Shown here in pieces: positions 24,050 to 28,606 of a DNA stretch of 64,000 bases (the stretch's first letter is position 1; each line of letters begins with the position of its first letter). This DNA comes from Porphyromonadaceae bacterium H1. Lineage in GTDB: Bacteria; Bacteroidota; Bacteroidia; Bacteroidales; Paludibacteraceae. The notes beneath the pieces were generated by a model, which did not search any database, was not told the DNA's origin, and was given only the letters and a program-made list of their open reading frames with translations. Made by a program: the position numbers and the translations under genes. Location of the stretch: contig BDEJ01000030.1 of the NCBI GenBank assembly GCA_001653155.1, positions 1-64,000 on the forward strand. The letters run 5' to 3'.

Positions 24050-25993
24050 ATGAGCTATCTTAATTTCGACAAAATGCTTCTGACTAACCTGGAGCGTTCG
24101 CTTTCAAAAGAGATTATCCGAAGCAATCGTGCCGGAGCCTACAACAGCACAACAATTGTGGATTGCAACACCCGCAAATACCACGGGCAATTGGTCGTTC
24201 CTTTGCCTCATTTGGATGAGAACAACCACGTATTGCTATCCTCACTCGACGAAACCGTCATTCAACACGGAGCGGAATTTAACTTGGGCCTACATCGTTA
24301 CGAAGGCAACCACTACAGCCCCAACGGACATAAATACATCCGCCAGTTCGACTGCGATTTCGTGACACGCACTGTTTACCGGGTAGGGGGCGTCATCCTG
24401 TCGAAAGAGCGCCTACTCGTTTCTTTTGAGCCCCGGGTGCTCATCAAATACACCTTACTCGAAGCGCACTCCCAAACTATTTTGCGTTTCAGACCTTTTT
24501 TGGCCTTCCGAAACGTACACGCTCTTACGCGAGAAAATGCAGAGGCGGATACCTCCTTCGAAAATTGCGAAAACGGCATAAGCATGTGCATGTACCATAA
24601 TTATCCTCGGCTCTACATGCAATTCACCCGTAAAAACAGCTACGAACATCACCCCGACTGGTATAAAAACATCGAATACTATAAGGAGCAAGAGCGCGGA
24701 TTCGAATACCGGGAGGACTTATTGGTGCCGGGATATTTCGAAATGCCGATAAAAAAAGGAGATTCAATTATTTTCTCGGCAGGTCTATCCGAAGTATCCA
24801 CTCGAAAATTGAAAGCTCTCTGGGATTACGATCTCTCCCGGCGCGTACCCCGCAAAGACATGTTCGCCTGTCTGAAAAACTCCGCACAACAGTTCTACAA
24901 ACGCGAAGCCGGAGAGACATACTTGTTAGCCGGCTATCCGTGGTTCGAAGCCCGGGCCCGAGACCAGTTCGTGGCCTTGCCGGGAAGTACGCTTACCATT
25001 GACAGGATGGACTATTTTGATGATATCATGAGCAGCTCGATCAAGGAAATCCGCCGCTTTCTAACCGGCGAGCTAAGCGAACAAAGGCTGAAAGGAATCG
25101 ACGACCCCGATGCTCTCTTGTGGTTTCTCTGGGCCATTCAGCACTACGCTGCGACACATTCCATACAAAAAGCTGCGACACGCTTCGGCGAGTTGGCCAC
25201 AGAAATCATTTCCTTCATCCGTAAGCAACAACATCCCAGGCTTTTCATTCATAATAACGGTTTGCTCTACGTCGACGGACATTCGAAGCCCGCAACATGG
25301 ATGAATGCCGTAGAAAACGACCGCCCCATCCTGACTCGATCCGGATATGTGGTAGAGATAAATGCCTTGTGGTACAACGCCCTTAAGTTTGTTGCCGAGA
25401 TGGAGCGAGAGCTAAAACACGAACATGCGGCAGACCTTATCGACTATCAGGCTGAAATGGCACGCGAAGAATTTGTTAAGGTATTTTGGAACGGAAGCTA
25501 CCTTTACGACTACGTGGAAGGCTCCTACAACGACAAAGAAGTGCGCCCCAACATGATTTTTGCAGTGGGGCTGCCCTACTCGCCCCTCAACCGCCAACAG
25601 CAAAAAGCGGTAATCGACATTGTTACGCGCGAGCTGCTTACCCCCAAAGGTCTTCGAACTCTCAGCCCCAAAAGCGGATTTTACCGTCCGAGCTACGTTG
25701 GCGGACAACTCGAACGTGACCGAAACTACCACAATGGCCCGGTTTGGCCTTGGACTTTTGGGGTCTTTGCAGAGGCCTACATTCGTGTACACAAAGACCG
25801 AGGCTACGACTTCATCCGTCGAATGCTTTTAGGTTTCGAAGCCGACATGACGGAGCTGGGCATCGGGACTCTCAACGAACTCTACGACGGCAACCCTCCC
25901 TTCAAAGGGCACGGAGGTGTATCCTTCGCCATGAGTGTAGCGGAGGTGTTGCGAGCAATAGACATGATAAGAAAGCATACAAAAACCGAATGA
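24050..25993 (+). CDS. Glycogen debranching enzyme (amylo-alpha-1,6-glucosidase type)
   Basis: The 647-residue protein has an N-terminal GDE_N-like domain (about 20-290; NRAGAYNSTTIVDCNTRKYHGQLVV, VLLSSLDETVIQHG) and a C-terminal GDE_C/GH133-type (alpha/alpha)6 barrel (about 310-640; RDQFVALPGSTLT, DALLWFLWAIQHY, NRQQQKAVIDIV, LRTLSPKSGFYRPSYVGG, YHNGPVWPWTFGVF). It removes alpha-1,6 branches from glycogen. It is first of three co-directional genes; four bases separate it from the glycosyltransferase. The C-terminal motif GTLNELYDGNPPFKGHGGVSFA is also typical of the family. Confidence 0.9.
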   Translation: MSYLNFDKMLLTNLERSLSKEIIRSNRAGAYNSTTIVDCNTRKYHGQLVVPLPHLDENNHVLLSSLDETVIQHGAEFNLGLHRYEGNHYSPNGHKYIRQFDCDFVTRTVYRVGGVILSKERLLVSFEPRVLIKYTLLEAHSQTILRFRPFLAFRNVHALTRENAEADTSFENCENGISMCMYHNYPRLYMQFTRKNSYEHHPDWYKNIEYYKEQERGFEYREDLLVPGYFEMPIKKGDSIIFSAGLSEVSTRKLKALWDYDLSRRVPRKDMFACLKNSAQQFYKREAGETYLLAGYPWFEARARDQFVALPGSTLTIDRMDYFDDIMSSSIKEIRRFLTGELSEQRLKGIDDPDALLWFLWAIQHYAATHSIQKAATRFGELATEIISFIRKQQHPRLFIHNNGLLYVDGHSKPATWMNAVENDRPILTRSGYVVEINALWYNALKFVAEMERELKHEHAADLIDYQAEMAREEFVKVFWNGSYLYDYVEGSYNDKEVRPNMIFAVGLPYSPLNRQQQKAVIDIVTRELLTPKGLRTLSPKSGFYRPSYVGGQLERDRNYHNGPVWPWTFGVFAEAYIRVHKDRGYDFIRRMLLGFEADMTELGIGTLNELYDGNPPFKGHGGVSFAMSVAEVLRAIDMIRKHTKTE

Positions 25994-25997
25994 TCAT

Positions 25998-27257
25998 ATG
26001 AAAGCACTAATGCTGGGATGGGAGTTCCCCCCGCACATATTGGGTGGATTAGGAACAGCAAGCTATGGGCTTACGAAAAGCATGTCCCAACAAGGAGATA
26101 TGGAAATCACCTTTGTGATCCCCAAGCCTCAGGGAGACGAAGACCAAAGTTTCCTGAAAATAACAGGAGCCTGCTGCGTGCCGGTGGTTTGGAAAGAAAA
26201 CAGCTGGGAACATGTAAATGTCCGTATCGGCAAGCTGATGCATCCCGACGAATACTTCTGGCTGCGCAACGGAATCAAATACGACTACCGACGCATCTAT
26301 ACCAACGACTTGGGTTGCATTGATTTTTCGGGTCGCTACCCCGACAATCTTCTCGAGGAGATTTCCAATTACGAAGCCGTTGTAAGCGTATTGGCTCATC
26401 AACTATCTTTTGACATCATCCATTCGCACGACTGGCTAACCTATCCTGCCGGGGTATTTGCCAAGCAAATCAGCGGAAAACCTCTGGTGGTGCACGTACA
26501 TGCCACCGATTTCGACCGTAGCCGCGGACAGGTGAACCCCATTGTTTACGGCATCGAAAAACGAGGTATGGAGCTGGCCGATCACATCATCACCGTGAGC
26601 GACCTCACACGGCGCACCGTCATCGAGAAATACCACCAACATCCGGATAAAGTAACAACGGTTCACAATGCCGTAGAACCGCTCAAGGATGTAGACAGCT
26701 TTGTAAAAACTCCACGGAAGGACAAAGTCGTAACTTTCCTGGGGCGAATAACCATGCAAAAAGGACCGGAATACTTCGTAGAAGCGGCACATCGGGTATT
26801 GCAAAAAACACAAAAGGTGCGTTTTGTCATGGCCGGAAGCGGCGATATGATGCAAGCCATGATCGACCTCGCAGCCCAACGTAACATCGCCGACCGTTTC
26901 CACTTCACGGGCTTCCTCAAAGGAAGGGAAGTGCATCAAATGCTGGCCGAAAGCGATGTTTACGTAATGCCCTCCGTATCCGAACCCTTCGGCATATCAC
27001 CTCTCGAAGCCATGCAGGTAGGCACACCCAGCATCATATCCAAACAGTCGGGTTGTGCCGAGATACTGACCCACGCCATAAAAACCGACTACTGGGACAT
27101 CGAGGCCATGGCAGACGCTATTTATACCATTGTGGAAAATCCGGCTGCCTACCGCTCCTTACGCGAACTGGGACGCGAAGAGGTGAACAACATCCGATGG
27201 TACGATGCCGGATTGAAAGTACGCAAGATTTACGACAGACTAACCGGAGCTTTGTAA
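25998..27257 (+). CDS. GT4 glycosyltransferase of glycogen/alpha-glucan metabolism
   Basis: The 419-residue protein has GWEFPPHILGGLGTASYGLTKSM at the N-terminus, which in starch/glycogen synthases binds the sugar nucleotide, and HSHDWLTYPAGVFAKQ. In the C-terminal half are FLGRITMQKGPEYFVEAA and the EX7E motif in SEPFGISPLEAMQVG. It resembles the GT4 enzyme found between the debranching and GH57 genes in Bacteroides operons. It may act in glycogen synthesis, although a classical GlgA would be GT5. Sugar donor unknown. Confidence 0.85.
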   Translation: MKALMLGWEFPPHILGGLGTASYGLTKSMSQQGDMEITFVIPKPQGDEDQSFLKITGACCVPVVWKENSWEHVNVRIGKLMHPDEYFWLRNGIKYDYRRIYTNDLGCIDFSGRYPDNLLEEISNYEAVVSVLAHQLSFDIIHSHDWLTYPAGVFAKQISGKPLVVHVHATDFDRSRGQVNPIVYGIEKRGMELADHIITVSDLTRRTVIEKYHQHPDKVTTVHNAVEPLKDVDSFVKTPRKDKVVTFLGRITMQKGPEYFVEAAHRVLQKTQKVRFVMAGSGDMMQAMIDLAAQRNIADRFHFTGFLKGREVHQMLAESDVYVMPSVSEPFGISPLEAMQVGTPSIISKQSGCAEILTHAIKTDYWDIEAMADAIYTIVENPAAYRSLRELGREEVNNIRWYDAGLKVRKIYDRLTGAL

Positions 27258-27307: not shown

Positions 27308-28606
27308 ATGAAAAATATTTGCTTTTACTTCGAAGTTCACCAAGCCCTTCGTCTGAAACGCTATCGCTTCTTCGACATCGGAGACAATCATTACTACTAC
27401 GACGACTTCCAAACGGAGGACTACCTGCGCAATTTGGTAGAAGAGGCCTATCTGCCGGCCAATCGAACCATTGCCGAGATGATACGCAGCTCGAACGGCA
27501 AGTTCAAGTGTGCGTTTTCCATATCGGGCATCAGCTTAGACCTCTTCGAGCAGTATGCTCCGGAGCTGATTGACAGCTTCCGCGAATTGGCACAAAGCAA
27601 TACGGTGGAATTTTTGGCCGAACCTTATGCTCATTCCCTCGCTTCGGTATTCAACCCCCAGGAGTTTGAGCTGCAAGTAAAAATGCACAGCGACAAGATA
27701 GAAAGCCTTTTTGGAAAACGCCCGACGGCCTTTCGAAATGCCGAATTAATCTATTCCGACGAAATCGGCGAACTGGTTGCCAACATGGGATACAAGGTCA
27801 TGCTCATCGACGAAGCACGGCACATCATGGGATGGAAAAGTCCCAACTTCGTCTATCGACATGCTTACCGCCCCAAACTCAAACTATTGGTACGAAACTA
27901 CAAACTGAGCGACGACATAGCATTTCGCTTCTCGGACCACAGCTGGAAGGATTTCCCACTTACTGCCGAAAAATACATACATTGGATTAAAAATACTCCT
28001 CCGGAGGAAAACATCATCAATATTTGGATGGGGTACGAAGCTATCGGCCACTTCCAACGTCAGGAATCGGGTATTTTCGATTTTCTCAAAGCCATACCCT
28101 ACCGGGCCATGGAACAGGAAATCGGTTTCATCTTCCCCTCGGAAGCCGGACGACGCATCGAAGCGGTAGACAGCCTGAGCGTGCCTCATCCCATCAGCTG
28201 GTCGGGACACGAGAAAGACCTCACACCCTGGCTGGGGAATGACCTCCAGCAGGAAGCTCTCAACAAACTATACGCCGTATCCGAACGGGTACACCTCTGC
28301 AAAGAGCATCCTCTCAAGTACGACTGGCTCATGCTACAGACCAGTGACCACTTCCGATACATGAGTCACAAAGACCCCTTTGGAACTTATTACGAATCAG
28401 CCTACGACGCATTCATCAACTACATGAACGTACTGGCCGATTTTCTTGATCGCGTCAATGCACAATATCCCGACGGCATCGAGAACGAAGAACTCAATGA
28501 ACTGATAAAGACCATCAACAACCAGGAAAAGCAAATCGCACTACTCGAACAAGAAATTGCCAAACTGCAGGCAGCTAAACCTGTGTGCAAGCGGAAGACA
28601 AACTAA
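27308..28606 (+). CDS. GH57 alpha-amylase-like protein, acid/base residue apparently missing
   Basis: The 432-residue protein has GH57 features: CFYFEVHQALRLKRYR at the start, FLAEPYAHSLAS near residue 103, and the nucleophile region TAFRNAELIYSDEIG with Glu146. Region 4, normally an Asp-containing MDYETFGEHQ-like motif, here reads WMGYEAIGHFQ (residues 240-250), with Gly242 at the place of the catalytic Asp. A group of GH57 homologues in Bacteroidota is known to lack one or both catalytic residues. It is third in the debranching/GT4/GH57 operon and may have a binding or altered catalytic role. The last 35 residues form a coiled coil (EKQIALLEQEIAKLQAAK). Confidence 0.85.
   Translation: MKNICFYFEVHQALRLKRYRFFDIGDNHYYYDDFQTEDYLRNLVEEAYLPANRTIAEMIRSSNGKFKCAFSISGISLDLFEQYAPELIDSFRELAQSNTVEFLAEPYAHSLASVFNPQEFELQVKMHSDKIESLFGKRPTAFRNAELIYSDEIGELVANMGYKVMLIDEARHIMGWKSPNFVYRHAYRPKLKLLVRNYKLSDDIAFRFSDHSWKDFPLTAEKYIHWIKNTPPEENIINIWMGYEAIGHFQRQESGIFDFLKAIPYRAMEQEIGFIFPSEAGRRIEAVDSLSVPHPISWSGHEKDLTPWLGNDLQQEALNKLYAVSERVHLCKEHPLKYDWLMLQTSDHFRYMSHKDPFGTYYESAYDAFINYMNVLADFLDRVNAQYPDGIENEELNELIKTINNQEKQIALLEQEIAKLQAAKPVCKRKTN

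Follow-up and report, generated by a model that had tools for sequence, protein, structure and literature searches.

Why would a conserved glycogen operon keep a glycoside hydrolase that lacks its proton donor? The question is raised by a GH57 protein of Porphyromonadaceae bacterium H1 (order Bacteroidales, family Paludibacteraceae), encoded in the 64,000-nucleotide stretch that we analysed (the window: positions 1 to 64,000 of the forward strand of contig BDEJ01000030.1, GenBank assembly GCA_001653155.1). The gene (27308..28606, + strand), delimited by open reading frame (ORF), Pfam, profile alignment and model, encodes 432 residues and is the single GH57 gene in a genome of 2.84 Mb and 117 contigs. 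Residues 6–292 match Pfam GH57 (PF03065) at 218 bits against a cut-off of 21, and annotation at the family level alone would label the product an α-amylase. We favour, with about even confidence, a catalytically disarmed α-amylase-like member of the Bacteroidales glycogen cluster GH133–GT4–GH57. On equally balanced grounds, we propose that proteins of its clade bind α-glucan without cutting it and, through a C-terminal tail, help the neighbouring GT4 glycosyltransferase reach or choose chain ends.

Profile alignment and codon reading place Gly242 (codon GGG, 28031..28033, +) at the acid/base position in the WMGYEAIG motif of conserved sequence region 4 (CSR-4), and Glu146 (27743..27745, +) at the nucleophile position in FRNAELIYS of CSR-3. 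A PDB search with the single sequence gave a chance match only, so a profile of 137 relatives was required. Run against PDB sequences, with structure residue numbers counted by hand from the alignment, it pairs residues 146 and 242 with Glu123 and Asp214, respectively, of Thermococcus litoralis 4-α-glucanotransferase (1k1w), and with Glu185 and Asp349 of Thermotoga maritima AmyC (2b5d); the match around residue 242 comes from the second, weak segment of the alignment to 1k1w and from the third segment of that to 2b5d. These pairs are the nucleophile and acid/base of the two enzymes (PMC5347038 and PMC6616209, each cited from part of its text). The GH57 nucleophile Glu of CSR-3 is present, and the proton-donor Asp of CSR-4 is absent. 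Both assignments had been made in the original prediction and hold here; that prediction had also named another Asp at the acid/base place as a finding that would count against it, and none occurs in the profile alignments to solved GH57 enzymes. The AlphaFold model (mean predicted local distance difference test (pLDDT) 95.1, predicted template modelling score 0.91) has the GH57 fold with its incomplete TIM barrel. Its best match is Aquifex aeolicus amylopullulanase (9kyq; Z 34.9, root mean square deviation 3.0, 341 residues), and the top 19 rows of the structure search are all GH57 chains. His13, Glu79, Glu216 and Asp354 of the T. litoralis enzyme, which we take to be active-site residues, carry none of the claims made here; residue names of that enzyme were looked for in PMC9582752 and did not turn up.

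The loss of the acid/base has a single main origin. We drew relatives from named contigs and from genomes of the family, order and phylum, finding a GH57 match in 267 of 295 Bacteroidales genomes against 12 of 198 from the phylum at large, with six of those twelve weak (E 1e-10 or worse). Among 195 distinct GH57 proteins, residue 242 is Gly in 78, Asn in 54, Asp in 49, Glu in 5, Thr in 5 and Ser in 4, and residue 146 is Glu in 181. The tree alignment holds the window protein and 136 of the 195 (137 rows), after dropping any row that contains unknown residues, copies of the window protein itself and whatever was at least 80% alike to a row already included. The tree was inferred by a quick method without the columns around both catalytic residues, with the Shimodaira–Hasegawa-like approximate likelihood-ratio test (SH-aLRT) as its only support measure. 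The window protein falls in an 89-row clade of full support (SH-aLRT 100), with residue 242 Gly in 48, Asn in 31, Glu in 4, Ser in 3, Thr in 2 and Asp in 1. The other 48 rows form a sister group that we call Asp-type (Asp 44, Asn 2, Glu 1, Ser 1). The same split, again a single change with SH-aLRT 100, appears in three further trees, those of GT4, of GH133 and of GH57 stripped of CSR-3, CSR-4 and the tail, and was therefore inherited along with the genomes.

Asp is most simply the ancestral state at residue 242, because all five rows from outside Bacteroidales that fall among these proteins (L132–L136) carry it. The distribution of Asp and non-Asp rows requires six changes, which on our reading of the tree are one ancestral loss, single losses outside the clade in L144, L188, L203 and L147, and a return of Asp in the L109 lineage; L147, like L146, is a long row whose place in the tree is unsure. 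Asn rows, among them named Dysgonomonas, Petrimonas and Proteiniphilum rows, prevail on the earlier clade branches, and Gly prevails in the window's own family, Paludibacteraceae by its named rows, so the simplest path would be one ancestral change from Asp to Asn and then Gly in Paludibacteraceae. Two Paludibacteraceae rows inside the Gly group, L109 and L110, have Asp back at 242 (IWVDAETFG), without the neighbouring Glu-His. We rejected sequencing error, since the step from Asp to GGG takes at least two base changes and the non-Asp state is clade-wide: with Gly, Asn, Ser, Thr or Glu in 88 of 89 members, Gly242 is neither chance nor a read error. The original prediction, which treated Gly for Asp as a feature of one enzyme, was right on the residue and too narrow in scope, the loss being old and clade-wide, with Asn probably first and Gly later.

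The GH57 protein is under strong purifying selection: the ratio of nonsynonymous to synonymous rates (dN/dS) is 0.022–0.056 in the seven close pairs, out of ten, that give a computable GH57 dS, values on which we rejected a pseudogene. The idea that a GH13 amylase took over the task and left the GH57 to decay as a relic would find some support in a GH13 homologue that adjoins the GT3 glycogen synthase and the phosphorylase in the window's genome and is present in 34 of 41 clade-side against 9 of 19 Asp-type genomes (p 0.012, counted by hand), but this association is weak, crosses both groups and is suggestive only. The low dN/dS, the open frames, the conserved operon and a newly frozen tail all speak against it; decay is largely excluded, and we think the relic highly improbable.

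Positions lining the cleft are retained in the clade: H11 in 89 of 89 rows, E101 and N144 each in 87, E146 in 79 and W298 in all 89. CSR-1 reads HQA in the window, where residue 13 (27344–27346) is Pro in 81 of 89 clade and 48 of 48 Asp-type rows. Beside the lost Asp, E248 (46/48 Asp-type rows) and H249 (43/48) have been freed in the clade and vary widely, with 38 and 44 changes. In four of four rows of a paralogous group (L195–L198), both catalytic residues are replaced (S146 and E242), with the tail, GT4 and GH133 kept. Genome G340 has two GH57 copies, one of the Asn type (L159) and one of the Ser146/Glu242 type (L196), each with its own GT4 and GH133 matches.

The window's own sub-clade (22 rows, G242 in 21) carries three further substitutions. 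Gly300 (28205..28207, +), Arg350 of CSR-5 (28355..28357, +) and His354 (28367..28369, +) are fixed in all 22, where Asp-type rows have Asp (47/48), Tyr (45/48) and Thr (47/48), respectively. With two acids lost (D242 and D300) and two basic residues gained (R350 and H354), the site could suit an anionic ligand. Active GH57 α-amylases close CSR-5 with two tyrosines, at logo positions 35 and 36 (PMC6037648, cited from part of its text). These correspond by description to residues 350–351, which are R350-Y351 in the window and Tyr-Tyr in most Asp-type rows (Y351 in 46/48). The window protein fits the α-amylase-like class in that its Asp is missing and its sister group is Asp-type with the Tyr-Tyr ending.

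Could another acid have stepped in, so that hydrolysis or transglycosylation goes on? Glu244, two residues beyond the lost Asp, is a candidate (Glu in 72 and Asp in 10 of 89 rows), as is His354 in the window's sub-clade, where it is fixed. E244, however, has come under no added constraint (it changes 14 times in the clade and twice in Asp-type rows), and since it is also present in Asp-type enzymes it is not a compensating residue. His354 is missing from the Asn-type rows, 31 of 31 of which have Thr. We consider a substitute acid unlikely.

The clearest gain in the clade is at the C terminus. A helix spanning residues 388–423 (28469..28576, +) has a core of P388, E394, E395, L396, L399, I403, Q406, I410 and L413 that is near-invariant in the clade, and the 3-4-3-4-3 spacing from L396 to L413, read by eye, resembles a coiled-coil core. 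In the 40 clade and 42 Asp-type genomes that hold GH133, GT4 and GH57, the clade has frozen 9 of the 30 Asp-type-variable sites within residues 386–415 and 6 of the 177 in the rest of the protein (p 2.4e-5). The tail motif is found in 80 of 89 clade rows, with near variants in most of the remaining nine, and in 0 of 48 Asp-type rows, whose tails are also charged. Confidence drops where the helix begins in the monomer model, with a pLDDT of 65 over residues 391–400. We infer that the tail is an interface.

A candidate for the other side of that interface lies next door. Upstream on the same strand are a GH133-type glycogen debranching enzyme with GDE_N and GDE_C domains (24050..25993, +; ORF and Pfam) and a GT4 (25998..27257, +; ORF, Pfam, PDB search and alignment), as the original prediction had described. 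The order GH133–GT4–GH57 on one strand is conserved. Among rows with at least 1,500 bp upstream, 79 of 84 in the clade and 46 of 46 of the Asp type have GT4 as the immediately preceding gene; among those with at least 3,500 bp, GH133 comes before it in 41 of 42 and 41 of 41. The five clade rows without an adjacent GT4 have none in the available stretch (L007, L011, L015, L021) or have it further off (L180). That prediction had also argued for an altered role from retention in the operon; the cluster is indeed kept, but it also houses the ancestral type that has Asp, and operon membership alone therefore does not explain the loss.

The clade differs from the Asp-type group in the pace of GT4. 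Across 40 clade and 42 Asp-type genomes holding all three genes (L180 and L195–L198 left out of the rate comparison and the frozen-site counts for GT4 and GH133), the GT4 tree length is 5.48 against 16.23, a ratio of 0.34; the same genomes give 0.54 for GH133 and 0.66 for GH57. Sites variable in Asp-type rows and frozen in the clade number 26 of 175 in GT4 against 23 of 419 in GH133 (p 0.0004), and GT4, which otherwise hardly changes within the clade, has fixed switches between the groups such as G115 to P, G176 to R and V353 to C (each in 76 of 76). With E329, E337, R250 and K255 invariant in 59 rows, GT4 is by its residues an intact GT-B enzyme. By sequence, the closest protein of solved structure is GlgM (6tvp; E 3.5e-21, or 2e-34 by profile). 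The donor residues of GlgM (His109, Asn171, Arg207, Lys212, Glu289 and Gly292; PMC7137382) map manually to H168, N224, R250, K255, E329 and G332, and all six are invariant in 59 of 59 GT4 rows.

This likeness feeds an alternative in which the chemistry is altered and not abolished. Glu146, retained in most of the clade despite the loss of the acid/base, would still form a glycosyl-enzyme, and protonation is dispensable when the donor carries a good leaving group. The GlgM-like GT4 could make α-maltose-1-phosphate as that donor, with GH57 passing the maltosyl unit to glycogen, much as GlgE does with another fold. The anionic character of such a donor could agree with the charge changes in the window's sub-clade. 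Yet the GT4 scores 122.8 bits on the NCBIfam GlgM-like model TIGR02149, well under its cut-off of 302.4, several other GT4 enzymes rank as high as GlgM or higher in the structure search, and the nucleophile is itself replaced in 10 of 89 rows. Altered chemistry seems to us rather unlikely.

In the clade the operon has also broken up downstream of GH57. Counting rows with at least 1,500 bp, a GT3 glycogen synthase and/or GT35 phosphorylase lies downstream of GH57 in 33 of 45 Asp-type rows against 0 of 75 in the clade. The phosphorylase frame is a GT3–GT35 fusion of 1343–1454 residues in 18 of 19 Asp-type genomes, and in none of the 37 clade-side genomes that gave a match is it longer than 900 residues (fusions counted by hand, leaving out G047, whose GH57 is a fragment). 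In the Asp-less clade, GT3 and GT35 are separate genes elsewhere in the genome. The window's genome has GT3 (547 residues), phosphorylase (854 residues) and a GH13 together on contig 17, a GlgB-like GH13 of 675 residues on contig 16, and a GH77 with CBM20 on contig 43. Fused GT3–GT35 ORFs of about 1,400 residues, often adjoining GH57, were seen at L118, L124, L143 and other Asp-type loci and in G041, G042, G051 and other genomes. The Asp-type row L145 (genome G040) has His at the nucleophile and an unfused phosphorylase directly after GH57, with no GT3 match in its genome. On contig 43 of the window's genome, a 271-residue ORF (L225:1486-2298) corresponds to the N-terminal half of a GT5 starch synthase only, without the C-terminal glycosyltransferase domain. 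The operon break is not needed for the loss of Asp, since L144, L188 and L203, which lost it within the Asp-type group, keep the downstream core genes. The arrangement bears on glycogen synthesis in Bacteroidales, where an unexplained GT4 exists alongside a GT3 synthase, a phosphorylase and a GH13 branching enzyme.

How, then, might a GH57 without its proton donor serve this operon? The donor was lost on a single ancestral branch, Asp giving way to Asn and subsequently to Gly, and the barrel and glucan cleft were retained; with the cleft kept and the donor gone, α-glucan chains would be expected to be bound and not cut at a useful rate. Removing the donor while keeping the cleft is the crystallographer's way of trapping substrate. 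By PDB title, A. aeolicus amylopullulanase D352N has been crystallized with cyclodextrins or maltotriosyl-maltotriose (8zyi, 9jlt, 9jlu). If D352 is, as we presume, the acid/base of that enzyme, this would be the same Asp-to-Asn swap in a form that binds, and it is by analogy to such substrate-trapping mutants that we expect the clade protein to bind glucan. The protein would then act as an accessory subunit of the neighbouring GT4, holding a glycogen chain end near the glycosyltransferase, with the C-terminal helix contacting either GT4 or another copy of itself, the latter giving several binding sites. We infer the lack of hydrolysis, the glucan binding and the partnership with GT4 alike. 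The original prediction offered glycogen binding or altered chemistry; these are still the right two options, and the evidence leans to binding.

Several observations weigh against this proposal. A pure binder would not need the nucleophile, which most of the clade nevertheless keeps, with Ala, Ser or Asp in the other ten rows. Asp was regained in one sub-lineage (L109/L110). Clustering of the frozen GT4 sites in the acceptor domain falls short of significance (p 0.08 over residues 45–135; p 0.29 over residues 1–190), so they locate no contact face on GT4, and no GT4–GH57 fusion occurs among 200 pairs. Finally, a single stem branch carries the loss of the acid/base, the freezing of the tail, the slowing of GT4 and the break-up of the operon, which makes their association one event from which cause is unreadable.

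A bolder version is possible, if doubtful: on this Bacteroidales branch a cutting GH57 would have become a glucan-holding subunit, and GT4–GH57 a two-part α-glucan synthase with the former amylase as its primer-binding site. Were that so, the tail would be a coiled-coil docking element, the GlgM-like GT4 would have slowed and acquired its fixed switches in that setting, and the fused synthase–phosphorylase would have split and left the operon. Either way, the loss can be traced, an Asp-type sister group survives with the same operon, selection is strong, and there are candidates for both the partner and the contact element, so that the role of a dead glycosidase becomes directly testable.

Inactive relatives of this kind are known. 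Martinovicova and Janecek (2018; PMC6037648) list 126 GH57 α-amylase-like proteins lacking catalytic residues, 66 of them bacterial, and consider it very unlikely that they work as typical GH57 enzymes, in agreement with the original prediction's appeal to such proteins; for that group, the part of the paper covered here gives no function, single origin, tail or link to GT4. In the open-licence literature we found no paper that links a GH57 protein without catalytic residues to GT4 or describes the tail, and nothing under GH57 with pseudoenzyme. Within the literature covered, in part from partial texts, the window protein is thus a known kind of inactive relative whose single origin, frozen tail, GT4 slowdown and operon break we did not find described. 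Its neighbour GT4 has GlgM as its nearest relative by sequence, with the same donor-site residues, but falls below the NCBIfam cut-off and aligns poorly in its N-terminal part; the mycobacterial GlgM literature, as far as covered, yielded no tie to GH57.

The gene cluster has counterparts. Bacteroides thetaiotaomicron has a GH133 at BT_4303 and a GH57 at BT_4305 (PMC12834350, in the part covered). Archaeal clusters of GT4, GH133 and GH57 are described in a partly covered source (PMC11046441), which also reports low glycogen in a Sulfolobus acidocaldarius GH57 mutant; in Picrophilus the same three kinds of gene adjoin, but the cluster is archaeal and its GH57 is there termed GH57-amylase. Against 1k1w and the GH57 branching enzyme and AmyC set (1ufa/3p0b, 3n8t, 5wu7 and 2b5d), the window protein shares the fold and the aligned nucleophile but has Gly for the acid/base Asp, is far shorter and reaches only 14–18% identity. 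Closest in kind to the Asn-type rows are the A. aeolicus D352N structures, which have the same fold and an engineered Asp-to-Asn change with glucan or cyclodextrin in the crystal; those are laboratory mutants of an active enzyme, whereas the change in the window's clade is natural and fixed.
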